Shown here piece after piece: positions 23,083-61,400 of a stretch of 64,000 nt of DNA; the first letter of the stretch is position 1, and each line of letters begins with the position of its first letter. The position numbers were made by a program, and so were the translations under genes. The notes beneath the pieces are model-generated. The model saw only the letters and a list, made by a program, of their open reading frames with translations. It was not told the DNA's origin and searched no databases. This stretch comes from Mesostigma viride (taxonomy: Eukaryota > Streptophyta > Mesostigmatophyceae > Mesostigmatales > Mesostigmataceae): NCBI GenBank assembly GCA_009746045.1, contig RPFO01000130.1, forward strand, positions 581,808 through 645,807, in the 5' to 3' direction.

Positions 23083-24070
23083 TAATTAATTAATTAATAG
23101 ACACGTGACTGCGTCACGTGAGCATAAGTCCTCAGTGGGAGGGGAACATGGGATGGAATGGATGGTATATGCTATCATCTAGGTCCTAGTTACAGGGGTG
23201 TGGGCACCGCGGCCCGAATCGCTATGAATGCCATACTTGGTCACACGCGGAGCCCCCACAGGCTTGGGGGTGGTCTCCTTCATCACTACTTGCCATCTAT
23301 CCTTGCGCACCATCTGCCTCCATATTACAGACAAACCAGGAGGCTGCCCGGGGGTGAGCCCGTCACGTCTAGCGTAGCACATGTCCATGCCGAGTCTATC
23401 ACGAAAAGTCCACGGGTGGCGGCCCTGCCGCGCGCGGCCGGGGGCACGCCAGGTGAGGACATATCGCCCAGGCTGGGCGGGCTTGGTGCCAGCTAGTCTA
23501 TCTGATGTATCTACCTGATCTGTGCGGGCCAGGTGCCCGGCTAGGCCCAGGCGCCTGTGCCTAATAATGTGGGAAACATAGGGCAAATCAGCGTACAAAT
23601 CCTCATTACTAATGTGCAAACCAAAGGGGATGTTAAGGGCCTTGCGCAGCATCTTGGTGACGGCGCCGTCGAGTCGTTGCTCCAGCTCCTGCATCAGTGT
23701 CCACGTCTCGGCGCCGTAGGTCAGGATCGTCAGAATGACGACCTTGAAGAGGTCACGCTTGACGATCCGGGGTAGGGCGGGGTTGCTCCACCAGCGGCGG
23801 TGGTCATGGAGGTGCGCCCACGCCATGCCGATCCGTGTCGTCATATCGTCCTCGCAGTCGGGAAGCCAACTGCCGAGCAGCTTGAAGCGGCCTGAAGGAG
23901 GGTAGTTGACCTCGGCATCGTCTAAGAGGCGGAGTGTGGGTGGGGGCCCTGCCATGCCGAGGGCCAGGGCCTCCGTTTTGGGGCTGAGTTCTAGACCAAC
24001 CGCCCGAGCCTCGAGCGCCAGGCAGTCCAGCCAAAGTTGGGCAGACTCCGGCTTCTCGATGAGCGTGATG
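23083..24070 (-). mobile_element. Non-LTR retrotransposon, 5'-truncated, with 11-bp target duplication
   Basis: Minus-strand frame from 24070 to about 23180 encodes the end of a LINE-type reverse transcriptase: ITLIEKPESAQLWLD (immediately after where the YADD box would be), KVVILTILTYGAETWTL, LPYVSHIIRHRRLGLAGHLA and VIWRQMVRKDRW. The 3' UTR follows with the CACGTGAC-TGC-GTCACGTG hairpin at about 23101-23121 and a TTAA tail at 23083-23098. Both ends are flanked by TTAGCACCCAT (23072-23082 and 24071-24081), the expected target-site duplication, so truncation happened at integration. The frame is intact, so this is a fairly young insertion but lacks the active site. Confidence 0.9.
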
Positions 24071-24255
24071 TTAGCACCCATAGGACATTGCAACATGACC
24101 TAAGACATGACCCCCAAGGAGGTCCACATATGTGTGTGCTTTGGTCCTTAGTAGTATGGGCAGGCTGTAACCCGGTCGCTCTACGGCCGGCCCCAGTACT
24201 TGTCTACCAGGTTATTGCGTGCGACTAGGTGCGCACTAGACAGAGTTGTAATCTA

Positions 24256-33375: not shown

Positions 33376-33435
<60 letters not shown>

Positions 33436-37448: not shown

Positions 37449-40400
37449 ATGTCCGCTCCTGGGTCTCCCTTCGCGCAAAAAAGGTCCAGTTTCAAAGGAA
37501 CTACCACGGGTAATGTCTCTTCGCCAAAAGCTGACGTGGCACCCCGTGGAAGCTCTGGAGGCGGTGTCCGGCGCAACCCATCCACCTCCGCCGCCTCCCC
37601 GGCAGCTGTCGCCAGCAAGGCCCCTGGGAGGGGCAGCACGCCTGCCAAGGAGGAGAGGCCGGGCAGCGACACGGCGCGCGACCAAGACGGTTCCGATGAC
37701 GAAGCCGAGGGATCCACCCCCGCCCAGCCGGCGAAGAAGAAGTGGAAGAAAGTGCGCATCGCGGTCAACTTGTCTGCCTGCAAATACGACGTCTGTAAGT
37801 GATTCCTCACCACCCTATTGGTGCGCCCGCCACTCTATGGGTGCCCTCATTGCCTTTTATACTAGGGACTTCACACAGAGCATTTACCTTAAGGCTTACA
37901 GCATGTGTGTGAAGGCATCCAGCCTACCACGGCCTGGTACTGGTTTCATATGGCTGGCCAGTAGTGCTGACAGTCGTACAACCACCCTTTCACCTGCACT
38001 AGCCACCACCACCTGCTATTCATGCAGTGCAGCTCCGTACACTCCAGTAACCCAGCCATGTGACCACCACAGCAACCCGACCACCCGCCCGACCCTACCA
38101 CAATGCACCTTGACTTGGTCCCATCCTACACAAATGCACGGTGAGGTGCTTGTTTTGCCACATTTTTCTGTATCTATGCCGCCTGTCTTTCCCCCAATGA
38201 TGACCTAACTTACCACCAAACCATACCCAACCCAACCTATCTCTTGCTACCCAACCATAGGCTTATCCTGGCCCATGCCCCCCCATTCTCACCCTGTACC
38301 CACCCTATAAGCACACCCAGCACCCTGTGACCCACTCAAAAAACGTCCCTGTAGCCCTGATCGTTCCTACTACTGCACTGTGCACTAGGCTCGTAGAGCG
38401 AATGGGACGGTGCCTAGCAACCAGCCACCAACCCACCCACCCACCCACCCACCCACCCACCCACCCACCCACCCACCCACCCACCCACCCACCCACCCAC
38501 CCACCCACCCACCCACCCACCCACCCACCCACCCACCCACCCACCCACCCACCCACCCACCCACCCACCCACCCACCCACCCACCCGCCTGCCGACTTGC
38601 TTGCCAATAAGTTCCTTGTACCCTTAAGGCTTTTCTCCCCCTGTCGCATGCAGCACGCATCGTGCTGGCCGAGCTCATGCAAACGGGCCCATATCGCACA
38701 TGCTTCCCTTTTTTTCCCCTCACATGTCACATGCAGTGCGCATCGTGCTGGCCGAGCTCATGCAAACGGGCCCATATCGCACATGCTTCCCTTTTTTTCC
38801 CCTCACATGTCGCATGCAGTGCGCATCGTGCTGGCCGAGCTCATGCAAACGGGCCCATATCGCACATGCTTCCCTTTTTTTCCCCTCACATGTCGCATGC
38901 AGTGCGCATCGTGCTGGCCGAGCTCATGCAAACGGGCCCATATCGCACATGCTTCCCTTTTTTCCCCTCACATGTCACATGCAGCGCGCATCGTGCTGGC
39001 CGAGCTCATGCAAACGGGCCCATATCGCACATGCTTCCCTTTTTTTCCCTCACATGTCACATGCAGTGCGCATCGTGCTGGCCGAGCTCATGCAAACGGG
39101 CCCATATCGCACATGCTTCCCTTTTTTCCCCCTCACATGTCACATGCAGTGCGCATCGTGCTGGCCGAGCTCATGCAAACGGGCCCATATCGCACATGCT
39201 TCCCTTTTTTTCCCCTCACATGTCGCATGCAGTGCGCATCGTGCTGGCCGAGCTCATGCAAACGGGCCCATATCGCACATGCTTCCCTTTTTTCCCCCTC
39301 ACATGTCGCATGCAGTGCGCATCGTGCTGGCCGAGCTCATGCAAACGGGCCCATATCGCACATGCTTCCCTTTTTTCCCCTCACATGTCGCATGCAGCAC
39401 GCATCGTGCTGGCCGAGCTCATGCAAACGGGCCCATATCGCACATGCTTCCCTTTTTTCCCCTCACATGTCGCATGCAGTGCGCATCGTGCTGGCCGAGC
39501 TCATGCAAACGGGCCCATATCGCACATGCTTCCCTTTTTTCCCCCTCACATGTCACATGCAGCGCGCATCGTGCTGGCCGAGCTCATGCAAACGGGCCCA
39601 TATCGCACATGCTTCCCTTTTTTCCCCCTCACATGTCGCATGCAGCGCGCATCGTGCTGGCCGAGCTCATGCAAACGGGCCCATATCGCACATGCTTCCC
39701 TTTTTTCCCCCTCACATGTCGCATGCAGCGCGCATCGTGCTGGCCGAGCTCATGCAAACGGGCCCATATCGCACATGCTTCCCTTTTTTCCCCTCACATG
39801 TCACATGCAGCGCGCATCGTGCTGGCCGAGCTCATGCAAACGGGCCCATATCGCACATGCTTCCCTTTTTTCCCCTCACATGTCACATGCAGCGCGCATC
39901 GTGCTGGCCGAGCTCATGCAAACGGGCCCATATCGCACATGCTTCCCTTTTTTCCCCTCACATGTCACATGCAGCGCGCATCGTGCTGGCCGAGCTCATG
40001 CAAACGGGCCCATATCGCACATGCTTCCCTTTTTTCCCCTCACATGTCGCATGCAGCACGCATCGTGCTGGCCGAGCTCATGCAAACGGGCCCATATCGC
40101 ACATGCTTCCCTTTTTTCCCCTCACATGTCACATGCAGTGCGCATCGTGCTGGCCGAGCTCATGCAAACGGGCCCATATCGCACATGCTTCCCTTTTTTC
40201 CCCTCACATGTCGCATGCAGCACGCATCGTGCTGGCCGAGCTCATGCAAACGGGCCCATATCGCACATGCTTCCCTTTTTTCCCCTCACATGTCGCATGC
40301 AGTGCGCATCGTGCTGGCCGAGCTCATGCAAACGGGCCCATATCGCACATGCTTCCCTTTTTTCCCCCTCACATGTCACATGCAGCGCGCATCGTGCTGG

Positions 40401-43400
40401 CCGAGCTCATGCAAACGGGCCCATATCGCACATGCTTCCCTTTTTTCCCCCTCACATGTCGCATGCAGCGCGCATCGTGCTGGCCGAGCTCATGCAAACG
40501 GGCCCATATCGCACATGCTTCCCTTTTTTCCCCCTCACATGTCGCATGCAGCGCGCATCGTGCTGGCCGAGCTCATGCAAACGGGCCCATATCGCACATG
40601 CTTCCCTTTTTTCCCCTCACATGTCACATGCAGCGCGCATCGTGCTGGCCGAGCTCATGCAAACGGGCCCATATCGCACATGCTTCCCTTTTTTTCCCCT
40701 CACATGTCACATGCAGCGCGCATCGTGCTGGCCGAGCTCATGCAAACGGGCCCATATCGCACATGCTTCCCTTTTTTCCCCTCACATGTCACATGCAGTG
40801 CGCATCGTGCTGGCCGAGCTCATGCAAACGGGCCCATATCGCACATGCTTCCCTTTTTTTCCCCTCACATGTCACATGCAGCGCGCATCGTGCTGGCCGA
40901 GCTCATGCAAACGGGCCCATATCGCACATGCTTCCCTTTTTTTCCCCTCACATGTCACATGCAGCGCGCATCGTGCTGGCCGAGCTCATGCAAACGGGCC
41001 CATATCGCACATGCTTCCCTTTTTTTCCCCTCACATGTCACATGCAGTGCGCATCGTGCTGGCCGAGCTCATGCAAACGGGCCCATATCGCACATGCTTC
41101 CCTTTTTTTCCCCTCACATGTCGCATGCAGCGCGCATCGTGCTGGCCGAGCTCATGCAAACGGGCCCATATCGCACATGCTTCCCTTTTTTTCCCCTCAC
41201 ATGTCACATGCAGTGCGCATCGTGCTGGCCGAGCTCATGCAAACGGGCCCATATCGCACATGCTTCCCTTTTTTTCCCCTCACATGTCGCATGCAGTGCG
41301 CATCGTGCTGGCCGAGCTCAAGTGGAAGGAGGTGGGCGACGAGAGCGACTGGCACGTCTGCTGGATCGACACGTCCGTCTCCCTCGAGCGCGTCATGCGG
41401 CTCGCGCCCTACCAGGTACAACCGTATAGGACCACACAGGCTCACGAAGGGTAGGCTAGGGTAGGCTAGGGTAGGCTAGGGTAGGCTAGGCTAGGCTAGG
41501 CTAGGCTAGGCTAGGCTAGGCTAGGCTAGGCTAGGCTAGGCTAGGCTAGGCTAGGCTAGGCTAGGCTAGGGTAGGCGAGGCGAGGCGAGGCGAGGCGAGG
41601 CGAGGCGAGGCGAGGCGAGGCGAGGCGAGGCGAGGCGAGGCGAGGCGAGGCGAGGCGAGGCGAGGCGAGGCTAGGCTAGGGTAAGGTAGGGTAGGGTAGG
41701 GTAGGGTAGGGTAGGGTAGGGTAGGGTAGGGTAGGGTAGGGTAGGGTAGGGTAGGGTAGGGTAGGGTAGGGTAGGGTAGGGTAGGGTAGGGTAGGGTAGG
41801 GTAGGGTAGGGTAGGGTAGGGTAGGGTAGGGTAGGGTAGGGTAGGGTAGGGTAGGGTAGGGTAGGGTAGGGTACGGTAGGGTAGGGTACGGTAGGGTAGG
41901 GTAGGGTACGGTAGGGTAGGGACGCGAATGGTAAAGCAGGCGATGCGGGTAGACAGGCAATACAGGTGGATAGTCAACGAAGGTAGATAGGCAAAACATG
42001 GTAGATAGGCAACAAATGTGGATAGGCAACAAGGGTAGATAGGCAACTAGGGTATATAGGCAACAAAGGTGTATAGGCAACAAGGGTAGATAGGCAGCAA
42101 TGGTATATAGGCAGCAAAGGTGGATAGGCGACAAATATAGATAGGCAACAACACACTTGGTAGGCAACATAGAGGATAGGCAATGTGGCAGATAGGCAAC
42201 CCAGTAGAATGGCACAATAACTAGATAGGTAACACAAGCAGTTTAGTTAGGCTGCAACAGTACTTGAGCAAGGATTGTCTGGCGATGCAAGTGGGTGGGA
42301 GATGTAAGTAGATAGGCGAACACGTAGGGTAGCACAGACTTTGTAGGCTTCGTACGGACGGGCACGCTCTATATAGGCCATATACTTAGTAAAACAGGCA
42401 GCCTAGCAGAAAGTAATGCTTGTTGGGCCTGCGCCAATTCATGCCTCTCTATCTATGGGTTTAGTTGTTCTATCAGTAGTAAATAATTACTCACTGTTGG
42501 TATATAATTACTGACTGTTGGTGTATGATTACTCACTGTTGGTATATGATAACTCACTGTTGGGATATGACTACTCACTGTTGGTATATGATAACTCACT
42601 GTTGGGATATGATAACTCATTGTTGGGATGTGATAACTCACTGTTCGTATATGATAGCTCACTGTTGGGATATGATTACTCTCTGTTGGTATATGATAAC
42701 TCACTGTTGGCGCATCCGCCCCTACCATGGCATGCGCAGCATGGGATGATCGCGGCACGTTGTCGCCTTACTACCCCCCACGCGCGCCGACCTTGCTTCT
42801 CTTGGGGCACCGCATTCACCCCTCCCACGGCATGGTAGACATTCACATGGTGTTATTCTATGGTTATCCGATCGTGTTGTTGTGTTTGATCCGATCGTGT
42901 TGTTGTGTTTGATCCGATCGTGTTGTTGTGTTTGATCCGATCGTGTTGTTGTGTTTGATCCGATCATGTTGTTGTGTTTGATCCGATCGTGTTGTTGTGT
43001 TTGATCCGATCGTGTTGTGTTTGATCCGATCGTGTTGTTGCGTTTGATCCGATCGTGTTGTTGTGTTTGATCCGATCGTGTTGTTGTGTTTGTTCCGATC
43101 GTGTTGTGTTTGATCCGATCATGTTGTTGTGTTTGATCCGATCATGTTGTTGTGTTTGATCCGATCGTGTTGTGTTTGATCCGATCGTGTTGTTGTGTTT
43201 GATCCGATCGTGTTGTTGTGTTTGATCCGATCGTGTTGCTGTGTTTGTTCCGATCATGTTGTTGTGTTTGATCCGATCATGTTGTTGTGTTTGATCCGAT
43301 CGTGTTGTTGTGTTTGATCCGATCGTGTTGTTGTGTTTGATCCGATCGTGTTGTTGTGTTTGATCCGATCATGTTGTTGTGTTTGATCCGATCGTGTTGT

Positions 43401-46400
43401 GTTTGATCCGATCGTGTTGTTGTGTTTGATCCGATCGTGTTGTTGTGTTTGATCCGATCGTGTTGCTGTGTTTGTTCCGATCATGTTGTTGTGTTTGATC
43501 CGATCATGTTGTTGTGTTTGATCCGATCGTGTTGTTGTGTTTGATCCGATCGTGTTGTTGTGTTTGATCCGATCGTGTTGTTGTGTTTGATCCGATCGTG
43601 TTGCTGTGTTTGATCCGATCGTGTTGTTGTGTTTGATCCGATCGTGTTTTTGTGTTTGATCCGATCATGTCGTTGTCGTCGTTGTGTTTGTTTCCCTTTG
43701 GCACGTGGTATGCCCCTACCCCACACACAGCGGATGCACCATTCGCCGGGCATGCAGGACATGGGGATGACCTTTGTGTGCCGTTGCATGGACACTACAT
43801 CCCCCACGTGATGCTATTGGACATGTGTGCAGCGCATCAACCACTTCCACGGCATGCTGGACATCTGTCGCAAGAAGCCGCTCGCCCGCAACATCGGCCG
43901 CCTGCGCACGCTCTACCCGAACGATTATGGATACACGCCCCGCACGTTTGTACTGCCGGGAGAGTAAGTGACTCATCTCCTAAGCCAATAAGGCACTTGC
44001 ATGTAGCTTGGCCAGCGCATCGTTCACGCTAGGGTAAATAACCCGCGTTGAACTGAACACACGCTCGTGCTGCCGGGAGAGTAAGTGAACCCTTCTCCCC
44101 ACGACATCTAATCTTTTGAGCTGTACATGGGGATGCCGGATCTCGGAAATCCTATGGCTTGCTTGCTTGATGCTCACGCAGACTGATTGGGTGTCCCATG
44201 CAGGCTTGCTACCCAAACCCCTTAGCGTCGCGTGCTGCTCTGTGCGTGGCATGCCAGCCTCTGCCAGGCGTGCGAGGCTGCAGCAAGATGTGCCTACATC
44301 CTGTCGCCGTCTTTTGGTGTGCTGTCGCCGTCTTTTGGTGTGCTTGGTATGCCGCTATCCCATGGCTACACTTTCCAAGCAACATGCACTACTACTGCAT
44401 GCACTATGCACTGTACAGTGTACAGTGCACTGTAACATGTGCACGATACAGTGCGCTATAATATATGCACCATACAGCGATCCAACTACCTGGTACAGTT
44501 TCTGAAGGTCCAAGAGAGGCATGGGGGTGTTTGTCACGTTTGCAAGCATCCATGACATGCTCGTGGGGACTTTAAGAATTACAATATTCTCTGGATTTCC
44601 ACAAATGTCCGCGAAAGCGCGATGCCTTCGTCCACGTCGGTTACTGGTGTCCACCGTGTCGCCGCTCCCATTCTTGCACACGCCGTGCCTTCCTCGCACT
44701 CAAACACGCCGTGCCTTCCTCGCACTCAAACACAGCGTTCCTGTTTTCCCCCCTAACCCTTCCCGTCCCGCCTGCGTGACCCAGGATGCAAGAGTTCCTC
44801 GCTCAGTTCAACTCCAAGAAGACCAAGACGTACATCCTCAAGCCCGATGCAGGGTGCCAGGTATGCCCCCGTTGCTTGCAACCGCACGGGCCTTGGTTAG
44901 AAGCCAAAGTGCATGCCCAGAGCATGGGCCAGTTGCTCGGACAATGGCATGCTGTTGCTTATATTTACTACTCTGCTTTTTTTTTCTTGCCGGAGCATGA
45001 TGCACGGAGCCTGTTCGAAGGAGGCTACCAGCTACCTGCGTAGCACCCGCCGTCGCCCCGCTCGCCAACCCTGATGGTAGCACCCGCCGTCGTCCCGCTC
45101 GCCAACCCTGATGATAGCACCCGCCGTCGTCCCGCTCGCCAACCCTGATGGTAGCACTGGCAGTCGTCCCGCTCGCCAACCCTGATGGACAGTAGCATCC
45201 GCAGTAGTCCAGCTAGCCTACCCTAATGGACAGAGTTCCCGCGATGGTTCGATGTCCGACACTGTTTCCAGCAACCTCGTTCTTTGGCCCACCTGCGTTG
45301 CTTCCATTGTGCGTGCGTGTGTGTCTGTGTGTATTCGTGTGTATTCGTGTGTATTCGTGTGTTTTCGTGTCTATTCGTGTCTATTCGTGTGTATTCGTGT
45401 CTATTCGTGTCTATTCGTGTCTATTCGTGTCTATTCGTGTCTATTCGTGTCTATTCGTGTCTATTCGTGTCTATTCGTGTCTATTCGTGTCTATTCGTGT
45501 CTATTCGTGTCTATTCGTGTCTATTCGTGTGTGCACGTTTGTGCGTGGTGTGTGATTGTGTCCACGCGTGTGCGCGCATGTGCGTGCGCAGGGCAAGGGC
45601 ATCTCGCTGGCGCAAAGCGCGCAGGAGGTGATCCGCAACTTGGACGCGATCGGCACGCAGAACGTTGTGGCCCAGCGCTACCTGTCCAAGGTGAGAGCGC
45701 ATCATCCATGGAAGCCACAAGGTGAGGGGCGACGGCCCAAGATGAAAGCGCATGATCCGTGCTGGCCACCAGGTCAGGCGTGATGGCCCACAAGTCACCA
45801 TGGCTGCCAGTGAGCACCGGCCAGCTGCGCCCTCTGTGCTAGCCATGCCAGCCTGGCTGCCTGCTCACCCGCCCACTAGCCGACCAGCCCGCCCACCTGC
45901 TGGGTTACTGGACCCATACACCACCACCTCCCCCGCATCCACCACCTTGCAACCTGCCTGACTCGCCCGCGCTGGCAAGTGCTCGCGCGACCTGCCTGCC
46001 TTGCTCCAGCTGATTTTTCCCCGCTCTTTCCTCTTCACTTGCCCCCTACTTAATACCCCCCATCACCAATACCTCTGCTACCCCCCCCCCCCCCTTTCAG
46101 CCGCTGCTCATCAATGGCTTCAAGTTTGACATGCGCATCTACACGCTGACCACGAGCGTGGACCCGCTGCGCGTCTACGTCTACAAGGAGGGGCTCGCGC
46201 GGTTCTGCACGTCAAAATACATCAAGCCGAAACCCGACAACCTGGTGCGTGCTGCGTAGAGTCCATCACGCCGAAACCCGACAACCTGGTGCGTGCTGCG
46301 TAGAGTCCACCACGCCGAAACCCGACCACCTGGTGCTGCGTAGAGTCCATCACGCCGAAACCCGACAACCTGGTGCGTGCTGCGTAGAGTCCATCGCGCC

Positions 46401-49400
46401 GAAACCCGACAACCGTGTGCGTGCTGCGTAGAGTCCATCACGCCGAAACCCGACCACCTGGTGTGTGCTGCGTAGAGTCCATCACGCCGAAACCCGACAA
46501 CCTGGTGCGTGCTGCGTAGAGTCCATCACGCCGAAACCCGACCACCTGGTGCGTGCTGCGTAGAGTCCATCACGCCGAAACCCGACAACCTGGTGCGTGC
46601 TGCGTAGAGTCCACCACGCCGAAACCCGACAACCTGGTGTGTGCTGCATAGAGTCCATCACGCCGAAACCCGACAACCTGGTGCGTGCTGCGTAGAGTCC
46701 ATCACGCCGAAACCCGACAACCTGGTGCGTGCCGCGTAGAGTCCACCACGCCGAAACCCGACAACCTGGTGCGTGCTGCGTAGAGTCCACCACGCCGAAA
46801 CCCGACAACCTGGTGTGTGCTGCATAGAGTCCATCACGCCGAAACCCGACAACCTGGTGCGTGCTGCGTAGAGTCCATCACGCCGAAACCCGACAACCTG
46901 GTGCGTGCTGCGTAGAGTCCATCGCGCCGAAACCCGACAACCTGGTGTGTGCTGCATAGAGTCCATCACGCCGAAACCCGACAACCTGGTGCGTGCTGCG
47001 TAGAGTCCATCACGCCGAAACCCGGCAACCTGGTGCGTGCTGCGTAGAGTCCACCACGCCGAAACCCGACAACCTGGTGCGTGCTGCGTAGAGTCCACCA
47101 CGCCGAAACCCGACAACCTGGTGTGTGCTGCGTAGAGTCCATCGCGCCGAAACCCGACAACCTGGTGTGTGCTGCGTAGAGTCCATCACGCCGAAACCCG
47201 ACAACCTGGTGCGTGCTGCGTAGAGTCCACCACGCCGAAACCCGACAACCTGGTGCGTGCTGCGTAGAGTCCACCACGCCGAAACCCGACAACCTGGTGT
47301 GTGCTGCGTAGAGTCCATCACGCCGAAACCCGACAACCTGGTGCTGCGTAGAGTCCATCACGCCGAAACCCGACAACCTGGTGTGTGCTGCGTAGAGTCC
47401 ACCACGCCGAAACCCGACAACCTGGTGCTGCGTAGAGTCCACCACGCCGAAACCCGACAACCTGGTGTGTGCTGCGTAGAGTCCATCACGCCGAAACCCG
47501 ACAACCTGGTGCTGCGTAGAGTCCATCACGCCGAAACCCGACAACCTGGTGCGTGCTGCGTAGAGTCCATCACGCCGAAACCCGACAACCTGGTGCTGCG
47601 TAGAGTCCATCACGCCGAAACCCGACAACCTGGTGCTGCGTAGAGTCCACCACGCCGAAACCCGACAACCTGGTGTGTGCTGCGTAGAGTCCATCACGCC
47701 GAAACCCGACAACCTGGTGCTGCGTAGAGTCCATCACGCCGAAACCCGACAACCTGGTGTGTGCTGCGTAGAGTCCACCACGCCGAAACCCGACAACCTG
47801 GTGCTGCGTAGAGTCCACCACGCCGAAACCCGACAACCTGGTGTGTGCTGCGTAGAGTCCATCACGCCGAAACCCGACAACCTGGTGCTGCGTAGAGTCC
47901 ATCACGCCGAAACCCGACCACCTGGTGCGTGCTGCGTAGAGTCCATCACGCCGAAACCCGACAACCTGGTGCTGCGTAGAGTCCATCACGCCGAAACCCG
48001 ACAACCTGGTGCTGCGTAGAGTCCACCACGCCGAAACCCGACAACCTGGTGTGTGCTGCGTAGAGTCCATCACGCCGAAACCCGACAACCTGGTGCTGCG
48101 TAGAGTCCATCACGCCGAAACCCGACCACCTGGTGCGTGCTGCGTAGAGTCCATCACGCCGAAACCCGACAACCTGGTGCTGCGTAGAGTCCATCACGCC
48201 GAAACCCGACAACCTGGTGTGTGCTGCGTAGAGTCCATCACGCCGAAACCCGACAACCTGGTGCTGCGTAGAGTCCATCACGCCGAAACCCGACAACCTG
48301 GTGTGTGCTGCGTAGAGTCCATCACGCCGAAACCCGACAACCTGGTGCGTGCTGCGTAGAGTCCACCACGCCGAAACCCGACAACCTGGTGCGTGCTGCG
48401 TAGAGTCCATCGCGCCGAAACCCGACAACCTGGTGTGTGCTGCGTAGAGTCCATCACGCCGAAACCCGACAACCTGGTGCGTGCTGCGTAGAGTCCATCG
48501 CGCCGAAACCCGACAACCTGGTGTGTGCTGCGTAGAGTCCATCACGCCGAAACCCGACAACCTGGTGCGTGCTGCGTAGAGTCCATCGCGCCGAAACCCG
48601 ACAACCTGGTGCGTGCTGCGTAGAGTCCATCAGGCCGAAACCCGACAACCTGGTGTGTGCTGCGTAGAGTCCACCACGCCGAAACCCGACAACCTGGTGC
48701 GTGCTGCGTAGAGTCCACCACGCCGAAACCCGACAACCTGGTGCGTGCTGCGTAGAGTCCATCGCGCCGAAACCCGACAACCTGGTGCGTGCTGCGTAGA
48801 GTCCATCAGGCCGAAACCCGACAACCTGGTGCTGCGTAGAGTCCATCACGCCGAAACCCGACCACCTGGTGCGTGCTGCGTAGAGTCCATCACGCCGAAA
48901 CCCGACAACCTGGTGCTGCGTAGAGTCCATCACGCCGAAACCCGACAACCTGGTGCGTGCTGCGTAGAGTCCACCACGCCGAAACCCGACAACCTGGTGC
49001 GTGCTGCGTAGAGTCCATCGCGCCGAAACCCGACAACCTGGTGTGTGCTGCGTAGAGTCCATCACGCCGAAACCCGACAACCTGGTGCGTGCTGCGTAGA
49101 GTCCATCGCGCCGAAACCCGACAACCTGGTGCGTGCTGCGTAGAGTCCATCGCGCCGAAACCCGACAACCTGGTGCGTGCTGCGTAGAGTCCATCGCGCC
49201 GAAACCCGACAACCTGGTGTGTGCTGCGTAGAGTCCATCACGCCGAAACCCGACAACCTGGTGCGTGCTGCGTAGAGTCCATCGCGCCGAAACCCGACAA
49301 CCTGGTGTGTGCTGCGTAGAGTCCACCACACCGAAACCCGACAACCTGGTGTGTGCTGCGTAGAGTCCATCACGCCGAAACCCGACAACCGTGTGCGTGC

Positions 49401-52400
49401 TGCGTAGAGTCCATCGCGCCGAAACCCGACAACCTGGTGCGTGCTGCGTAGAGTCCATCAGGCCGAAACCCGACAACCTGGTGTGTGCTGCGTAGAGTCC
49501 ATCACGCCGAAACCCGACAACCGTGTGCGTGCTGCGTAGAGTCCATCGCGCCGAAACCCGACAACCTGGTGCGTGCTGCGTAGAGTCCATCGCGCCGAAA
49601 CCCGACAACCTGGTGCGTGCTGCGTAGAGTCCATCACGCCGAAACCCGACAACCTGGTGTGTGCTGCGTAGAGTCCATCACGCCGAAACCCGACAACCGT
49701 GTGCGTGCTGCGTAGAGTCCATCGCGCCGAAACCCGACAACCTGGTGCGTGCTGCGTAGAGTCCATCACGCCGAAACCCGACAACCTGGTGCGTGCTGCG
49801 TAGAGTCCACCACGCCGAAACCCGACAACCTGGTGCGTGCTGCGTAGAGTCCACCACGCCGAAACCCGACAACCGTGTGCGTGCTGCGTAGAGTCCATCA
49901 CGCCGAAACCCGACAACCTGGTGCGTGCTGCGTAGAGTCCACCACGCCGAAACCCGACCACCTGGTGTGTGCTGCGTAGAGTCCATCGCGCCGAAACCCG
50001 ACCACCTGGTGCGTGCTGCGTAGAGTCCACCACGCCGAAACCCGACAACCTGGTGCGTGCTGCGTAGAGTCCATCGCGCCGAAACCCGACCACCTGGTGC
50101 GTGCTGTGTAGAGTCCATCGCGCCGAAACCCGACAACCTGGTGCGTGCTGCGTAGAGTCCATCGCGCCGAAACCCGACAACCTGGTGCGTGCTGCGTAGA
50201 GTCCATCACGCCGAAACCCGACAACCTGGTGTGTGCTGCATAGAGTCCATCACGCCGAAACCCGACAACCTGGTGCGTGCTGCGTAGAGTCCATCACGCC
50301 GAAACCCGACCACCTGGTGCGTGCTGCGTAGAGTCCATCACGCCGAAACCCGACAACCGTGTGTGTGCTGCGTAGAGTCCATCACGCCGAAACCCGACAA
50401 CCTGGTGCGTGCTGCGTAGAGTCCATCCCGCCAAGGTCCCACAACCACCTGGTGCGCGCTGCATTGTAAGGTGCATCACGCCAACACCCGACCACCGTGT
50501 GTCAGCCTACATAAAGCGTTCTAAGGTGCATCAGCCCATGACCCGACAACGCGTGGGTGGCACAACCAGCACAGTCGTGGGTGGATGCATGGGCGGCCAT
50601 GGGTGGCACATGCCCCTGCATGCTCAGTGACCTGCACTCCTTTGTATATCGGCACGTAAACGGCACCGCATGCTCACTGACCTGCACTCCTTTGTATATC
50701 GGCACGTAAACGGCACCGCATGCTCACTGACCTGCACTCCTTTGTATACCGGCACGTAAACGGCACCGGGGTCTCTGCACGCTCCACTGTGCGCGTCGGG
50801 GTGGCGTCAGGGGTGGGTGCCTGGCTGCCTGCCCGAGTGCAAGTCACTGCTGCACCCTGGAGCTTCCCAGGGGTACTGCAGCTCAGAGGAGGTAGTGGCT
50901 CACATGGCTGGCAATTGGTTCGATACGACTCTGCAGATGGCTTATATCTATACTAGTCCAGATGTGGGATATGATGAGGTGCCGGTATGGCTGGCATACC
51001 GCTTGGCAGCATAGGGCTTTCCCCAACTGGCCGTGCACGAGTCATCTCACTGGCCATGGTGTTCCTGCACCTGCACCCAGCGTCGCTATAACATGTCCTT
51101 CCCTAACGATCACACCCACTGGACAAGGTGTTCATGCACCTGACCAACTGCGCCATGTGCTTGCATTCGCCTTTGTTACTCATTCCTTTAACGCCACACC
51201 CACAGGACAAGGTGTTCATGCACCTGACCAACTATGCCATCAACAAGCACAACGAGGAGTTCCACTTTGCGACGGGCGCGGAGAGCTCAGAGGACGACAG
51301 CAAGTGGTGGGTGAGGGGGCCATGAGATAAATGCAGTGTGAGATGAATGGATGGTGCGGGTGAGGGGTGAAAAGGGCAGGGGACATGTGCACCGGTGAGG
51401 GCAGGGGCATGAGTACCGATGAGGGCATTGGCATGAGTACCGGTGGGACCATGGGAGAGGCTGCAACTGTTACGATGGGCTTGTGGAAGGAGACTGCACT
51501 ACGAGAGGCAGCGGCCGGTGAAAAGTGTCTGGTCTTGAATGCCTGGGGCAAGAAAGCGCTTAGGAAGGCGCGGCAGATTGTCAGGTGGTCCCTGCCGGCG
51601 CTCCCCTCTCATCGCAGCAGGCATCCTTGTGTTGTCTTTTAATTGAGATTACCGCTGTGGCTTCCTTCTTGCGGATGAGTGATGACCCAGGCTTGTGTCG
51701 GCGCTGATGCTCGTGGCGGCGGGCGCCCCTGCCCTCACATCCGCGTATGCTAGGGATGCTAGGGATCGTTGACTTGGCCTACCCTTGCGCCCTCTGCGGT
51801 GGCGGGCGGCACCCACGTGCGTTTTCCTTACCCCTTGCCAGCCCGCCGGAGCATGACCAGCGGATGCAGCACCCGTCCTTGTCGCTGACGATGCAAGCCC
51901 GCGTGTGTGTTGTCCCTTCTGCTTGCGATGGGGGGGCGCAGGAGCATGACCAAGCTGATGCAGCACCTGCAGAAGACACAGGGCATCGATCCTGACGAGA
52001 TGTGGATGTCCATCGCGGTATGAGGGATTAGGGAAAGTGTGGTTATCACATTTGGCCTTCTGCTTAGGTTAACCTTTTCATGCATGCAGGTTGAGCGCAC
52101 GGTCTGGGATCACCGTCGCAGTCTCTGATCTAATAGGTTAGGATGATTAGCACATCAGCCGGGACCACTAGACATACCCAGCTGGCTGGTCTCTATACGT
52201 TTGTGATTGTGACCCCCCCACACTCTTGTATGATGTGCCACTGCAGCACCACATCATGATGGATCCCCACGCATCGCCGATGCTTATACCTCAATGTCTT
52301 CTCTGACGCGCGGCACATTGGAGGCCTGGTGGCCAAGGCCTTCATTAGTGCTGCAACCTATGTAATAGGACCTTTGGCTATTCTATCTGTGACTTGCGTA

Positions 52401-55400
52401 CACTATTCATTGCAGGACCTGGTGGTGAAGACCGTCATCATCGCCGTGCCTGATCCAACCTGACCCACTGGCTATTATGTATGGACTCATGTACCCTTGC
52501 ACCGTGGGCTCCAGGACCTGGTGGTGAAGACCATCATCATCGTCGTGCCCCAGCTCATCTTCAACTACCGCTCGAGTGGGGGCCACGAGGCCTCCTCCTC
52601 CGTCTACGGGTCTCAGTGCTTCGAGCTGCTGGGCTTCGACATCATGCTCGACGAGAAGCACCGGCCGTGGCTGATTGAGGTGGGTGCCGTTAGATAGGGT
52701 ACAGCTAGGTGTGCTATAGTATAGGTGCTATAGTATAGGTGCTACAGTAAAGGTATAGGATACAGCTAGTTGTGCTATAGTAAGCACCGTATAGCCTGGC
52801 GTGCATGTCTGCCACCTGCTGGGCTTCGGCCTCGTGATCGTTTGTTAGTTCCCAGAGGTGGACCATTCCCCGTCCCACATCGTCAAGGCCCTGCTTGGCC
52901 TATGCCCATCAGCCCGCCTTTCTCTCGTTCTGTTTCCAGCCCATTCACCAGGGCGCGCTCGGCCTCCCTCACCATGGACACGTTGCTGGACCTGGCGCCC
53001 AACGTCTGACCCTCCTTTCCTCAAAAGTGGCGACCGTGGGAAATGGTAGAAACGCACGCTGACACCCACTCAGTTACGCCGGGGTGGACCGCTCGCCCTC
53101 CACGGTGGACACCCCCCTGGACCTGGCCATCGATGCCTTTCCCACCCTTCCTCACTACCACACTTGTCCCCACACACCTGCTTGCCCCTGCACCCCCAAC
53201 CTCAGGTGAACCACTCACCTTCCTTCACGGTGGACACCCCACTAGACCTGGCCATCAAGCGTGCACTCATCAGCGACACGCTCAAGATGGTGATCGACAC
53301 CAAGGCGGTCGGCCGGCTCAAGAGCGAGGAGAAGGAGATGCTGGCCTCCCGGCTGTACGCGTCGCGCCAGATGAAGGGGGGGACGTCTGGCAGAGAGGTG
53401 AGCGCCGCAGTGCCTGACAAGCCATAGGGCAATAAGGAGGTGGGTCCATTGTGCATGCTATAGGGGACAGGTACATGCTAGGAGGAGGTGGGTCCATTGT
53501 CCATGCTATAGGGGACAGGTACATGCTAGGAGGAGGTGGGTCCATTGTGCATGCTATAGGGGACAGGTACATGCTAGGAGGAGGAGGGTCCATTGTGCAT
53601 GCTATAGGGGACAGGTACATGCTAGGAGGAGGAGGGTCCATTGTGCATGCTATAGGGGACAGGTACATGCTAGGAGGTGGGTCCATTGTGCATGCTATAG
53701 GGGACAGGTACATGCTAGGAGGAGGTGGGTCCATTGTGCATGCTTAGGGGACAGGTAGATGCTATGAGGAGGTGGGTCCATTGTGCATGCTATAGGGGAC
53801 AGGTACATGCTAGGAGGAGGTGGGTCCATTGTGCATGCTATAGGGGACAGGTAGATGCTATGAGGAGGTGGGTCCATTGTGCATGCTATGGGGGACAGGT
53901 CCATGCTAGGAGGAGGTGGGTCCATTGTGCATGCTATAGGGGACAGGTACATGCTAGGAGGAGGTGGGTCCATTGTGCATGCTATAGGGGACAGGTACAT
54001 GCTAGGAGGAGGTGGGTCCATTGTGCATGCTATAGGGGACAGGTACATGCTAGGAGGAGGTGGGTCCATTGTGCATGCTATAGGGGACAGGTACATGCTA
54101 GGAGGAGGTGAGTCCATTGTGCATGCTATGGGGGACAGGTACATGCTAGGAGGAGGAGGGTCCATTGTGCATGCTATAGGGGACAGGTACATGCTAGGAG
54201 GAGGTGGGTCCATTGTGCATGCTATAGGGGACAGGTACATGCTAGGAGGAGGTGGGTCCATTGTGCATGCTATAGGGGACAGGTACATGCTAGGAGGAGG
54301 TGGGTCCATTGTGCATGCTATAGGGGACAGGTACATGCTAGGAGGAGGTGGGTCCATTGTGCATGCTATAGGGGACAGGTACATGCTATGAGGAGGTGGG
54401 TCCATTGTGCATGCTATGGGGGACAGGTACATGCTAGGAGGAGGTGGGTCCATTGTGCATGCTATAGGGGACAGGTACATGCTAGGAGGAGGTGGGTCCA
54501 TTGTGCATGCTATAGGGGACAGGTCCATGCTAGGAGGAGGTGGGTCCATTGTGCATGCTATAGGGGACAGGTCCATGCTAGGAGGAGGTGGGTCCATTGT
54601 GCATGCTATAGGGGACAGGTACATGCCATGAGGAGGTGGGTCCAGTGTGCATCCTATAGTGGACAGGTACATGCTAGGAGGAGGTGGGTCCATTGTGCAT
54701 GCTATAGGGGACAGGTACATGCCATGAGGAGGTGGGTCCAGTGTGCATCCTATAGTGGACAGGTACATGCCATGAGGAGGTGGGTCCAGTGTGCATGCTA
54801 TAGGGGACAGGTACATGCTAGGAGGAGGTGGGTCCATTGTGCATGCTATAGGGGACAGGTACATGCTATAAGGAGGTGGGTCCATTGTGCATGCTATAGG
54901 GGACAGGTACATGCTTGGAGGTGGAGGTGGGTCCATTGTGCATGCTATAGGGGCTCTAGCCCTGCTACGAGGGGCTTATGTGCGACACCGGCCTGGCCTT
55001 TGCGTCACCTTCGCTCGCCCACTGGATTGGTGCCGTCCACAGGATTCGGATGCGCGCAGGCGGCTGTTTATGGTGTAGGGTTTGGGGCGTCAGGGGTCAG
55101 GGGGCAGGGGGCAGGGGGCAGGGGGCAGGGGGCAGGGGGCAGGGGCAGGGGGCAGGGGGCAGGGGGCAGGGGGCAGGGGGCAGGGGCAGGGGGCAGGGGG
55201 CAGGGGGCAGGGGGCAGGGGGCAGGGGGCAGGGGTTTAGGGGCTAGGGGCCAGGGGCCAGGGGCCAGGCGCCAGGCGCCAGGGGCTAGGGGCTAGGGGCT
55301 AGGGGCTAGGGGCTAGGGGCTAGGGGCTAGGGGCTAGGGGCTAGGGGCTAGGGGCTAGGGGCTAGGGGCTAGGGGCTAGGGGCTAGGGGCTAGGGGCTAG

Positions 55401-58400
55401 GGGCTAGGGGCTAGGGGCTAGGGGCTAGGGGCTAGGGGCTAGGGGCTAGGGGCTAGGGGCTAGGGGACCGGGGCTAGGGGCTAGGGGCTAGGGGCTAGGG
55501 GCTAGGGCTTAGGAGTTAGGTGCCACCCACAGCTCTGCTTACCCGGCTATGCCTCACGCTGCTGAGTTTTCTCTTTTTCCTGACTCGATGACGCCATCGA
55601 CTTTTGCCGCAGGACGAGGACGCGCGGGAGCGTGCGCGCGCCCAGAAGGAGGCGGTGCAGGCCAAGAGGGACAAGATGGAGCTCGCGAATCTGGTGGGTT
55701 ACATGGGCTGGATAGATGGACAAGGCGGTGCAGGCAAACTGGCAAAGAGGGACACGATGGAGCTCGCGATTCTGGTGGGTGTGCAGTCAGGCAAATTGTT
55801 GGGAATGGCTGGTGTATGGGTTTATGGATGTGTCAACGCAAGCCGAAGGGCGACAAGAGGGAGTGCGCCCATCTGGTCGGTTGAGTCACCTGAGTGGTTG
55901 CGATTCCTGGTAGGGGCGGTCTGTGGGTGAGGCGGCGTAAGCAGACGAGGGACAGAAACGGGGGTCGCAAACCTGGTGGGTTCCACGAGCTGGATAGGCA
56001 TCATCACTCAAGCGGTGGGTGGGCGGGTGGGCGGGTGGGTGGGTGGGCGGGTGGGTGGGTGGGCGGATGGGTGGGTGGGCGGGTGGGTGGGTGGGCGGGT
56101 GGGCGGGTGGGTGGGTGGGCGGGTTGGTGGGTGGGTGGGCGGGTGGGTGGGTGGGCGGGTGGGTGGGTGGGCGGGTGGGTGGGCGGGCGGGTGGGCGGGC
56201 AGGCGGGTGGGTGGTCGGGTGGGTGGGTGGGCGGGTGGGTGGGCGGGCGGGTGGGAGGGTGGGTGGGCGGGTGGGAGGGTGGGTGGGGGTGGGTGGTGGG
56301 TGGGTGGGTGGGTGGGTGGGTGGGTGGGTGGGTGGGTGGGTGGGTGGGTGGGTGGTGGGTGGGTGGGTGGGTGGGTGGGTGGGTGGGTGGGTGGGTGGGT
56401 GGGTGGGCGGGCGGCGGGCGGGCGGGCGGGCGCGGGGCGGGCGGGCGGGCGGGCGGGCGGCGGGCGGGCGGGCGGCGGGCGGGCGGGCGGGCGGGCGGGC
56501 GGCGGGCGGGCGGGCGGGCGGGCGGGCGGGCGGGCGGGCGGGCGGGCGGGGTGAGGTGACGAAAGCAGAATTGCGACGAAACGGAGTGTTGGCCCTCAAG
56601 CTTTGAAGTTGGAGTGGATGTCGGTGTGGCGGCACCTCGGAACGTGGCAGCACTGTGGATAGTTCAGCAGTGATAGATGGGAAGGTGAGAGGTCAGAGCA
56701 GCTATAGGTGAGAGGTCGGGGCTTGTCTGCATACCCTTGAAGCTTACCCATACAAATCGTTTGTGTATGAGATCGTCCCATGCCCAACAACGGGGCAGAG
56801 CTTTGCATTTCGATCCACAATAGCTTGTCTTGCTTTCTGGCGTATACTGCTACAGACAGCACCCTCGTCATCAACCACCAGGTTGTTCCACACCCAAATC
56901 TTACCCTCCCTTACTCTGTTCCTATCCTCACCTACTTAAGCACTGTGGCTTGTCGCTCGGCTCACACTTTAGATTGAATCCCGCAATCCCGATTCACGTA
57001 CACGAGCACCCTCGTACGTATCTCCCCCTCCCCGAATATACAGCGCGGTCGCCATCGAAGCCTGCGGATGCTTGCAGTACCTTTAGCTGTGAGTCCCCTG
57101 CCACCCCCTCAGGGCTAACTAGCCGCCCACGTACCCCCACGTCACGTGCTCTGTTTCCACGGGGTATCCCACACCGCCCATCCCCACCACCTCCCCGCCA
57201 CCAGGGCAACTACTTCCCCGCCTACCCCCTGCCCGACGAGAAGAAGATGGCCAAGTATGCGGAGCTGCTGGCAGCTGCCGAGAAGGTCTTCCACGGTGAG
57301 GGGTGGGGAGGGGAGCTGAGCGTGGGGGTGGCAACGTCTTCCACGGTGAGGGGAGGGGGGGGGGAGCTGAGCGTGGGGGTGGCAAGGTCTTCCACGGTGA
57401 GGGGAGGGGGGGGGAGCTGAGCGTGGGGGTGGCAAGGTCTTCCACGGTGAGGGGAGGGGGGGGGAGCTGAGGGGGGGGTTGGCAAGGTCTTCCACGGTGA
57501 GGGGTGGGGAGGGGAGCTGAGCGTGGGGGTGGCAACGTCTTCCACGGTGAGGGGTGGGGGGGAGGGAGGGTTGAGGGTGGGGTTGGCAAGGTCTTCCACT
57601 GTGAGGGGTGGGGTGGGGGGCTGAATCAGGGGGCTGAGTCAGCTCAGGGGTTCAGACGCTGGTAACAGACGCAAGCAGGTGGAACCATCCCAATATAGTG
57701 CTCAAGGCATGTGGAGCCATCCCAATATAGTGCTTAAGGCATGTGGAACCATCCCAATATAGTGCTTAAGGCATGTGGAACCATCCCAATATAGTGCTCA
57801 AGGCATGTGGAACCATCCCAATATAGTGCTTAAGGCATGTGGAACCATCCCAATATAGTGCTCAAGGCATGTGGAACCATCCCAATATAGTGCTTAAGGC
57901 AGGTGGAACCATCCCAATATAGTGCTCAAGGCAGGTGGAACCATCCCAATATAGTGCTCAAGGCATGTGGAGCCATCCCAATATAGTGCTCAAGGCATGT
58001 GGAACCATCCCAATATAGTGCTTAAGGCATGTGGAACCATCCCAATATAGTGCTCAAGGCATGTGGAACCATCCCAATATAGTGCTTAAGGCATGTGGAA
58101 CCATCCCAATATAGTGCTTAAGGCATGTGGAACCATCCCAATATAGTGCTTAAGGCATGTGGAACCATCCCAATATAGTGCTCAAGGCATGTGGAACCAT
58201 CCCAATATAGTGCTTAAGGCATGTGGAACCATCCCAATATAGTGCTTAAGGCATGTGGAACCATCCCAATATAGTGCTTAGTGCATGTGGAACCATCCCA
58301 ATATAGTGCTTAAGGCATGTGGAACCATCCCAATATAGTGCTCAAGGCATGTGGAACCATCCCAATATAGTGCTTAAGGCAGGTGGAACCATCCCAATAT

Positions 58401-61400
58401 AGTGCTCAAGGCAGGTGGAACCATCCCAATATAGTGCTCAAGGCATGTGGAACCATCCCAATATAGTGCTTAAGGCATGTGGAACCATCCCAATATAGTG
58501 CTTAAGGCATGTGGAACCATCCCAATATAGTGCTTAAGGCATGTGGAACCATCCCAATATAGTGCTCAAGGCAGGTGGAACCATCCCAATATAGTGCTTA
58601 AGGCATGTGGAACCATCCCAATATAGTGCTCAAGGCATGTGGAACCATCCCAATATAGTGCTTAAGGCATGTGGAACCATCCCAATATAGTGCTTAAGGC
58701 ATGTGGAACCATCCCAATATAGTGCTTAAGGCATGTGGAACCATCCCAATATAGTGCTTAAGGCATGTGGAACCATCCCAATATAGTGCTTAAGGCATGT
58801 GGAACCATCCCAATATAGTGCTTAAGGCATGTGGAACCATCCCAATATAGTGCTCAAGGCATGTGGAACCATCCCAATATAGTGCTTAAGGCATGTGGAA
58901 CCATCCCAATATAGTGCTTAAGGCATGTGGAACCATCCCAATATAGTGCTTAAGGCATGTGGAACCATCCCAATATAGTGCTTAAGGCATGTGGAACCAT
59001 CCCAATATAGTGCTTAAGGCATGTGGAACCATCCCAATATAGTGCTCAAGGCATGTGGAACCATCCCAATATAGTGCTTAAGGCATGTGGAACCATCCCA
59101 ATATAGTGCTTAAGGCATGTGGAACCATCCCAATATAGTGCTTAAGGCATGTGGAACCATCCCAATATAGTGCTTAAGGCATGTGGAACCATCCCAATAT
59201 AGTGCTTAAGGCATGTGGAACCATCCCAATATAGTGCTTAAGGCATGTGGAACCATCCCAATATAGTGCTTAAGGCATGTGGAACCATCCCAATATAGTG
59301 CTCAAGGCATGTGGAACCATCCCAATATAGTGCTTAAGGCATGTGGAACCATCCCAATATAGTGCTTAAGGCATGTGGAACCATCCCAATATAGTGCTTA
59401 AGGCATGTGGAACCATCCCAATATAGTGCTTAAGGCATGTGGAACCATCCCAATATAGTGCTTAAGGCATGTGGAACCATCCCAATATAGTGCTTAAGGC
59501 ATGTGGAACCATCCCAATATAGTGCTCAAGGCATGTGGAACCATCCCAATATAGTGCTTAAGGCATGTGGAACCATCCCAATATAGTGCTCAAGGCATGT
59601 GGAACCATCCCAATATAGTGCTTAAGGCATGTGGAACCATCCCAATATAGTGCTTAAGGCATGTGGAACCATCCCAATATAGTGCTTAAGGCATGTGGAA
59701 CCATCCCAATATAGTGCTCAAGGCATGTGGAACCATCCCAATATAGTGCTTAAGGCATGTGGAACCATCCCAATATAGTGCTTAAGGCATGTGGAACCAT
59801 CCCAATATAGTGCTTAAGGCATGTGGAACCATCCCAATATAGTGCTTAGTGCATGTGGAACCATCCCAATATAGTGCTTAAGGCATGTGGAACCATCCCA
59901 ATATAGTGCTCAAGGCATGTGGAACCATCCCAATATAGTGCTTAAGGCATGTGGAACCATCCCAATATAGTGCTTAAGGCATGTGGAACCATCCCAATAT
60001 AGTGCTTAAGGCATGTGGAACCATCCCAATATAGTGCTTAAGGCATGTGGAACCATCCCAATATAGTGCTTAGTGCATGTGGAACCATCCCAATATAGTG
60101 CTTAAGGCATGTGGAACCATCCCAATATAGTGCTCAAGGCATGTGGAACCATCCCAATATAGTGCTTAAGGCATGTGGAACCATCCCAATATAGTGCTTA
60201 AGGCATGTGGAACCATCCCAATATAGTGCTTAAGGCATGTGGAACCATCCCAATATAGTGCTCAAGGCATGTGGAACCATCCCAATATAGTGCTTAAGGC
60301 ATGTGGAACCATCCCAATATAGTGCTTAAGGCATGTGGAACCATCCCAATATAGTGCTTAAGGCATGTGGAACCATCCCAATATAGTGCTTAAGGCATGT
60401 GGAACCATCCCAATATAGTGCTTAAGGCATGTGGAACCATCCCAATATAGTGCTTAAGGCATGTGGAACCATCCCAATATAGTGCTTAAGGCATGTGGAA
60501 CCATCCCAATATAGTGCTTAAGGCATGTGGAACCATCCCAATATAGTGCTTAAGGCATGTGGAACCATCCCAATATAGTGCTTAAGGCATGTGGAACCAT
60601 CCCAATATAGTGCTTAGTGCAGTGGTGAGTTCGAGACACATAGGAGCCTCTCACTTCGTCTGCAAGCAGCTGCCTGCTGCCCCAAGTGCGCGGGGAGAAA
60701 TGTCGGACTAAACCCTAAACCCTAAACCCTAAACACGGGCGAACTAGGGCTGCCCCTAGTACGCGGGCAGAAATGTCGGACGTGTTGCCGGTGTGTTGCC
60801 GCAATGTCAGGCGTTGCCTGTCCAGTTGTCTCACCTTGTCAGCGTCGTGCCTGCTCAGGGCCTGGAGAGTACCTGGATGCCAAGTCGGTATCAGCCACTG
60901 CAAGGAGTGAAGATATCTAAAGCTGACCGTCTGTTCCTACAACCCATGCCCCACCCACCTGCACCAACCCCCTCCCCCCCGCCCCATCACTGGCAGACTA
61001 CTCATACCAGATGAAAGTGCGCAACACGCTGGACAAGACGCGGCAGCAGAGGGTGGAGATGGACAAGGCGCAGGACGAGAAACTCAAGGCTCGCGTGGCT
61101 GGAACCAAGGCCGCCGCTGCGGCCGCCGTGGCCGCGGCTGGGTCCGCCGCCCCCGCGTGGCTGCGACAGCCGTCAGGGGACCAGCAGCCACAGGCCACAA
61201 TGACGTCATTGAGCGCGCCCGTCCCCGCGGCCTCCGTCACTGCGGGCGTCGCGGCCATGAGCATGAACGACACCGACGATGACATCACGATGATGTCATC
61301 ACCGCAGGCCGCGGGGGGCGCAGCCAGGGATGCGCAGGCGGCAGCGGCAGCGGCACTTGTCAAGACCACAGGTGGGGCGGGGGCGGCGCGCGTGCACGTG

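Follow-up and report, generated by a model that had tools for sequence, protein, structure and literature searches.

Introns of a tubulin-tyrosine ligase-like (TTLL) gene of Mesostigma viride contain copies of the edges of their own neighbouring exons, and these copies most probably result from generic tandem duplication combined with purifying selection, which would explain most of the pattern and make a targeting of exon-intron junctions unnecessary. The gene lies in a stretch of 64,000 nucleotides, C1513:581808-645807 (hereafter the window), and the genome searched for matches comprised 440 Mb in 2243 contigs. The copies were found on the side of the exon that they match, copy rates rose along a gradient from nearly empty exon middles into the introns, and mid-sized insertions and deletions (indels) between two near-identical contigs were tandem copies. 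Introns are lengthened by tandem arrays in general and not by junction arrays alone: tandem arrays occupy 15.4 of the 21.9 kb of TTLL intron (70%), and arrays spanning a junction sum to about 7.3 kb of these 15.4 kb.

The TTLL model comprises 13 exons and 12 introns, whose exon joins yield a single open frame. In a protein-database search, the 606-aa TTLL query was identical over its full length to the independently predicted protein P0001 (labelled jgi/Mesvir1), which matches PF03133 TTL (1.2e-78). P0001 diverges from the modelled last exon (window 60997-62640) near the end of that exon, so that the P0001 prediction places further introns there. The gene and its long junction arrays are located as follows.

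37449..62640, plus strand: TTLL gene with 13 modelled exons (open frame, P0001 identity, PF03133)
38642..41320, plus strand: intron 1/exon 2, 83-bp x 32.4 array containing the acceptor and about 24 exon 2 bases (repeat scan)
46220..50432, plus strand: intron 6, 44-bp x 97.2 array whose unit includes about 25 bases of the exon 6 end and the GT donor (repeat scan)
57283..57624, plus strand: intron 12, 50-bp x 6.7 array whose unit includes the final part of exon 12 and the GT donor (repeat scan)

The array in intron 1 holds 33 acceptor copies including the real one, all with AG (33/33); the real junction is the final copy (exon 2 starts at 41297). No stop codon occurs in any of the three forward frames of its 83-bp unit, so that the whole array is open in each. 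In intron 6, GT was present in 97/97 units including the real site, a count for which the search pattern itself required the G of GT, and the first unit is the real junction (exon 6 ends at 46244). Seven donor units were counted in intron 12, the first being the real site (exon 12 ends at 57295). In the same intron, telomere-like CCCTAAA repeats were seen at window positions 60708-60734, soon after a 32-bp x 92 array.

Creation or distortion of the arrays by the assembler is a very improbable source of these structures. Long arrays are hard to assemble and their copy numbers may be off, but the window contains no N, the array units differ among themselves, and assembly errors would not be expected to leave lone decayed relics such as those listed below. 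The published NIES-296 assembly, which the assembly used here probably matches, is described as based on PacBio and Illumina reads and an optical map, with 442 Mb in 2363 scaffolds and a read N50 of 11.2 kb (PMC6947507); reads of this length could span the 4.2-kb array.

For the detection of single copies, the 60 exon bases at each junction were aligned to the whole of the adjoining intron. Each alignment was controlled by 300 dinucleotide shuffles, by a set of 27 non-cognate introns and by the reverse complement. A copy was called clear when 0/300 shuffles scored as high, its score exceeded those of all 27 other introns and the match reached the junction. Clear copies were obtained at 10 of the 24 TTLL junctions and in 9 of the 12 introns, on the acceptor side in introns 1, 2, 6, 7, 8 and 9 and on the donor side in introns 3, 6, 11 and 12. 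Two neighbouring genes on the minus strand were analysed in parallel: a phosphodiesterase, whose modelled catalytic part reads as PF00233 across its exon joins (9.4e-67), and Rtf2, whose model reads as PF04641 across its exon joins (1.8e-39). These yielded one clear copy among 18 junctions (phosphodiesterase intron 2 acceptor) and two among 14 (Rtf2 intron 3 acceptor and intron 4 donor), respectively. A further match at the donor of phosphodiesterase intron 7 reached a score of 30 (0/300 shuffles) and ended 12 bases before the junction. Over the 13 clear sites of the three genes, forward scores were 26-60, compared with 13-22 for the reverse complement. Chance similarity was rejected as the source of the copies on the basis of the shuffle and non-cognate-intron controls and by the background rates given below. 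The copies and marginal cases outside the long arrays are the following.

42811..42842, plus strand: intron 2, decayed copy of the exon 3 start, acceptor AG lost (edge alignment, as for all following rows unless stated)
44060..44080, plus strand: intron 3, copy of the exon 3 end followed by an intact donor, gtaagt
45686..45790, plus strand: intron 5, 51-bp x 2.1 tandem repeat with a 5-base overlap with the exon 5 end, marginal (repeat scan)
51122..51156, plus strand: intron 6, copy of the exon 7 start, 33/35 identical, AG lost
51849..51873, plus strand: intron 7, copy of the exon 8 start, 24/25 identical, AG lost
52416..52450, plus strand: intron 8, copy of the exon 9 start, 33/35 identical, AG kept
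52816..52840, plus strand: intron 9, segment copied from exon 9, beginning 29 bases inside its donor end, score 30, 0/300
53084..53131, plus strand: intron 9, copy of the exon 10 start, 42/48 identical, AG lost
55723..55774, plus strand: intron 11, copy of the exon 11 end, 42/44 aligned bases identical, gapped, donor kept
17203..17239, minus strand: phosphodiesterase intron 2, copy of the exon 3 start, 30/32, AG kept
33433..33446, minus strand: Rtf2 intron 3, copy of the exon 4 start, 14/14, AG kept
33161..33190, minus strand: Rtf2 intron 4, copy of the exon 4 end, 28/30, donor kept

Further decayed copies of exon 10 were noticed upstream of 53084..53131 in intron 9, by eye only. An earlier note on this DNA had reported copies in up to 11 of the 12 TTLL introns, at twelve listed sites. 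Ten of the twelve sites proved clear, corresponding to 9 of the 12 introns. The acceptor of intron 10 was unsupported (score 18, with 111/300 shuffles as high; donor 14, 287/300), and the donor of intron 5 gave no exon-edge match (203/300 shuffles as high), leaving only the marginal tandem repeat in that intron. Intron 4, already reported as free of copies, contained none by 60-base edge alignment, and the occurrence of copies in the phosphodiesterase and Rtf2 genes was borne out. The copy numbers given in that note, from one decayed relic to 32 or 95 tandem units, agree with the 83-bp array and need correction from 95 to 97.2 for the 44-bp array.

Every one of the 10 clear copies in TTLL sits on its own junction's side of the intron, and the nearest is 44-122 bases away except in intron 2, where the distance is 1,022 bases with an 811-bp array in between. 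This arrangement bears on an origin of the introns themselves by tandem duplication of exonic AGGT segments, the copies being leftovers of intron gain. That introns can be gained by tandem duplication is accepted (PMC3443670), but such an origin predicts exon-edge copies at the far side of the intron, where none of the 10 was located, and many duplicated units already hold a splice site and intron sequence. This scenario was rejected, as the two intron ends are not the two copies of one exonic segment, and it is scarcely credible as an explanation of the pattern.

Under generic duplication with selection, short intron segments of tens to a little more than 100 bases would often be tandemly duplicated locally in Mesostigma, and some duplications would later be amplified into minisatellites. 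Duplications would land on genes roughly at random, those internal to exons being mostly purged by selection. If a segment with an acceptor is duplicated, the exon would stay intact only if the downstream acceptor is used; if a segment with a donor is duplicated, only if the upstream one is used. Duplications straddling a junction would persist, since an intact exon is still obtained from the splice-site copy closest to it and the surplus copies turn into intron. The expected outcome would be decoy acceptors upstream of the real acceptor or decoy donors downstream of the real donor, and in the modelled genes the intact exon is found at the exon-proximal end, as selection requires. The conserved protein and the predicted P0001 suggest that the exon-proximal site is the one selected in splicing, perhaps through exon definition. 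The molecular step may be slippage, unequal exchange or repair, and the copies themselves would be neutral.

Selection for the copies as functional alternative splice sites or exons would offer another reason for their persistence. The splice dinucleotide is kept in 17/24 measured copies, two of them as GC donors, and in the 33/33 and 97/97 array units mentioned above; in addition, the exonic part of the relics decays less than the intronic part. Against such a function, none of the unit lengths of 83, 44 and 50 bp is divisible by three, so that use of a decoy shifts the frame; the intron 8 copy, read in the frame of exon 9, reaches a TGA after 15 codons; and the predicted P0001 uses exon-proximal sites only. 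Functional copies are therefore considered very unlikely.

The earlier note had proposed a process that duplicates short segments spanning splice junctions, and copy rates at exon edges were compared with those of other sequence in the window and in a survey of the same genome. The survey comprised 60 loci, namely the best 30 of 129 kinesin (PF00225) and the best 30 of 58 chaperonin (PF00118) matches, taken with 1.5 kb on either side, and the genes were not picked for repeats. After removal of junctions with a splice score <2, sides with a complete profile and exact exon-edge repeats, 89 junctions remained. The profile hits of L015, L033, L038, L062 and L067 contain stop codons, which makes their exon limits less sure; L033 and L062 are among the positives. 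Two positives do not abut the junction (L032 donor, gap 35; L057 acceptor, gap 13), the acceptor copy of L030 sits 1,065 bases off, and L040 and L041 represent a single gene in two nearly identical copies.

Exon-edge copies within the adjacent 1.4 kb were found at 11 of the 89 survey junctions (12%), compared with 0/89 for the reverse complement. Intron tiles at six distances were copied in 21, 22, 20, 15, 13 and 22 of 89 cases (about 21%), and exon middles in 0/68 (1/68 at score 27). Over the three gene sets (TTLL, phosphodiesterase plus Rtf2, and survey), exon-internal copies amounted to 0/85 at score 30 (0/68 in the survey, 0/4 and 0/13 in the other two sets). The background against unrelated introns was 8/890 for edges and 16/534 for tiles. 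Edges were copied in 9/24 cases in TTLL (38%), 3/32 in phosphodiesterase plus Rtf2 and 11/89 in the survey, with tile rates of 0.50, 0.11 and 0.21, respectively. The rate of intron duplication hence varies more than fourfold among the gene sets, and exon-edge copies scale with it. At score 30, the edge-to-tile ratio was 0.75 for TTLL, 0.84 for phosphodiesterase plus Rtf2 and 0.58 for the survey, with a span of 0.38-0.95 across three score limits; a simple overlap count for 60-120 bp units placed at random yields a value of 0.50-0.70.

In the window, 30-base tiles were searched for a copy within 2 kb at a score >=30. Among exon tiles, 1/203 interior ones (>=45 bases from a junction), 1/83 at 15-45 bases and 9/55 at the edge (<15 bases) were copied, and among intron tiles the counts were 4/56 (<15 bases), 17/112 (15-45), 86/392 (45-150) and 1004/1744 deeper inside, without a peak of the copy rate at junctions in this test. 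Reverse-complement tile matches at score 30 numbered 8 in total, all of them intronic (5 and 3).

Tandem arrays were compared with the numbers expected from random placement. In the survey, 3/105 arrays touch a junction, three junction-spanning arrays were observed against 2.0 expected, and one array was observed within exons against 11.4 expected; for phosphodiesterase plus Rtf2, 0 junction-spanning arrays were observed against 0.5 expected. TTLL introns 1, 6 and 12 and three survey donors have a tandem unit that holds the exon edge with adjoining intron, and the exonic part of junction-crossing arrays varies (24, 25, 13 and 5 bases in TTLL; 32, 24 and 16 in the survey). Taken together, the edge, tile, exon and array counts indicate that duplication is general in introns, that exons are nearly clean, presumably due to selection, and that junction copies are the overlap. 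The caveat about bias in the earlier note, that only exon-derived parts are recognisable and only duplications leaving an intact exon survive selection, turned out to be the key to the explanation. Of its proposed process, the duplication of junction-spanning segments and the amplification of some of them were upheld, and its specificity for junctions was not, given that tiles exceed edges and that three arrays compare with 2.0 expected. That note had also set exon-internal or unrelated sequence found in introns as often as exon edges as a sign against it; by this comparison, the exon-internal count (0/85) speaks for it and the higher copying of intron tiles (about 21% vs 12% in the survey; 50% vs 38% in TTLL) speaks against it.

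Recent changes were assessed in C1641 and C887, which are 98.3% identical in seven collinear blocks (out of nine matches >200 bases) that total 11,598 aligned columns, with kilobase insertions between the blocks, and which are either alleles or a duplication. Tandem copies accounted for 10 of the 16 indels >=6 bp, where calls on indels of <10 bases may be due to chance, and for 3 of the 3 indels >=20 bp (24, 49 and 43 bp), the 24-bp one being a simple repeat. The 43-bp tandem copy that separates the two contigs is intronic and off-junction. Common to both contigs is a 40-bp tandem duplication at the donor of a chaperonin exon, comprising 31 exonic and 9 intronic bases with units 97-100% alike; young duplications accordingly do cross junctions, with varying breakpoints. 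This exon matches PF00118 positions 148-202 with 23.6 bits, under the family cut-off, and the match runs on into the next listed exon (PF00118 200-251). At the block ends (L069, L071, L073 and L075 vs L070, L072, L074 and L076), short overlaps resembling target-site duplications were noticed. C2 and C622 look like another near-identical pair in the kinesin search.

The decay of homology beside the splice site was followed at 145 junctions (window and survey), where 22 measurable exon-edge copies reached the junction at score 27. The exon side was better preserved, the 25 adjoining intron bases being less alike than the exon bases in most of the 22 copies. Homology past the exonic seed exceeded at least 95/100 shuffles in 19/24 cases, some of them only across the splice-site consensus. 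Junction-spanning duplication was simulated with an indel rate tuned to the genome (92 gaps : 185 substitutions), which reproduced much, not all, of the difference in identity between exon and intron.

Four points weigh against generic duplication with selection. The intron identity was <=0.72 in 17/22 copies, compared with about 10.5 expected from the simulation (summed over bins). Four junction-spanning arrays were observed in TTLL against 0.4 expected, in a gene that had been picked for its arrays. The survey junctions were set by profile hits and splice-site scores, not by transcripts. Finally, the indel spectrum of C1641 and C887 comes from one locus pair, in which no new duplication was shown on a junction. 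The first two points favour a junction-directed process (transcription- or splicing-linked breakage, R-loops or RNA re-insertion) that copies exon edges with boundaries at or near the junction, as do phosphodiesterase intron 2, where only 3 intron bases match beyond 30/32 exonic ones, and Rtf2 intron 4, where 7/8 match beyond 28/30. Against such a process, tiles were copied more than edges in all three gene sets and at all three score limits, and neither the arrays nor the recent chaperonin duplication stops at the junction: subtracting the exonic part from the unit leaves 9-59 intron bases. Moreover, selection of copies from the intron side gave the mirror image: 14/39 intron-edge copies reached the junction, and in 10/14 of these the exon side was <=0.72, so that part of the asymmetry comes from the side used to find the copies. 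The exceptional position of TTLL is due to the abundance of repeats in all parts of its introns. Junction targeting was rejected as the main cause on the window tile gradient, the survey counts, the array expectation and the edge-to-tile ratios, and is judged unlikely. The residual asymmetry may reflect faster-evolving pyrimidine tracts, or breakpoints or retention favouring splice sites; a second, junction-linked bias under generic duplication, by which exon edges and the splice consensus are preferentially copied or kept and homology fades there, is given only a slim chance. Repair coupled to splicing or transcription, if it did copy the ends of exons into introns, would constitute a novel way for introns to grow.

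In the remainder of the window, a 92-bp array was noted in the 3' region of the phosphodiesterase gene (7151-9265, minus strand), with AG|GT at each of the 23 unit joins found, which makes it look like a row of recursive splice points. No next phosphodiesterase exon was found below 9715 (9714-1, minus strand, past exon 10) with a single motif of the family, and the gene may be broken, diverged or extend past the window. By model, phosphodiesterase intron 6 (13219) and Rtf2 intron 7 (30939), both on the minus strand, are GC-AG introns. Retroelement open frames were present at 23179-26673 (minus strand), of which 25966-26673 matches reverse transcriptase PF00078 at 5.9e-12.

In this early-diverging streptophyte alga, the TTLL gene provides a measured example of how tandem duplication lengthens introns, and illustrates that a general process, seen only where it becomes visible, can pass for a junction-specific one. 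Its rows of similar sites (33 acceptors, 97 donors), each accompanying a single real one, represent a natural experiment on the choice made by the spliceosome. The conserved protein is obtained from the gene model only with the exon-proximal site; if this holds true in RNA, it would point to a choice made across the exon and would disfavour a simple scan that takes the first AG. For M. viride, long-read RNA data are publicly available under PRJNA509752 (PMC6947507).

Several known systems are related to these arrays. Introners, as described in PMC9860276, likewise add intron sequence in many genes, but are transposable and dispersed, whereas the Mesostigma units are local to their own junction. 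When 401 bases of the 83-bp array were searched against the genome, with very common words skipped, only its own locus was matched (9 matches, all on C1513); dispersed introners were rejected on the confinement of this one array to its locus. Intron gain by tandem genomic duplication (PMC3443670) also generates extra splice sites, but makes a new intron from exon sequence, whereas in Mesostigma existing introns grow. In human segmental duplications, internal tandem repeats at exon-intron boundaries change introns by minisatellite expansion (mean unit about 30 bp), as is the case here; unlike in Mesostigma, they are reported to vary between recent paralogues and to alter coding sequence or splicing (PMC2812944). 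Among the open-access literature matches listed, no report in algae or plants was found, which is no proof of absence. The closest counterpart is formed by the 'mirage' minisatellites of amphioxus, described for Adh3 and the globin genes BflGb6 and BflGb9 (PMC3087553, citing Canestro et al. 2002). According to PMC3087553, these occur at 5' and 3' boundaries with units of 10-160 bp and splice signals in many units; RT-PCR showed no interference with regular splicing, and length instability was tested as well. In Mesostigma, too, tandem units hold the junction, acceptor and donor sides are both affected, and AG or GT is kept. Since amphioxus mirages have already been described, the Mesostigma arrays belong to a known kind. 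They differ in size, with up to 33 and 97 units compared with 3 and 6 in the BflGb6 haplotypes given in PMC3087553, in their occurrence in a green alga rather than a chordate, and in that decayed single copies and controlled rates were measured. What is new is the presence of such arrays in a green alga, their much greater length and the controls.

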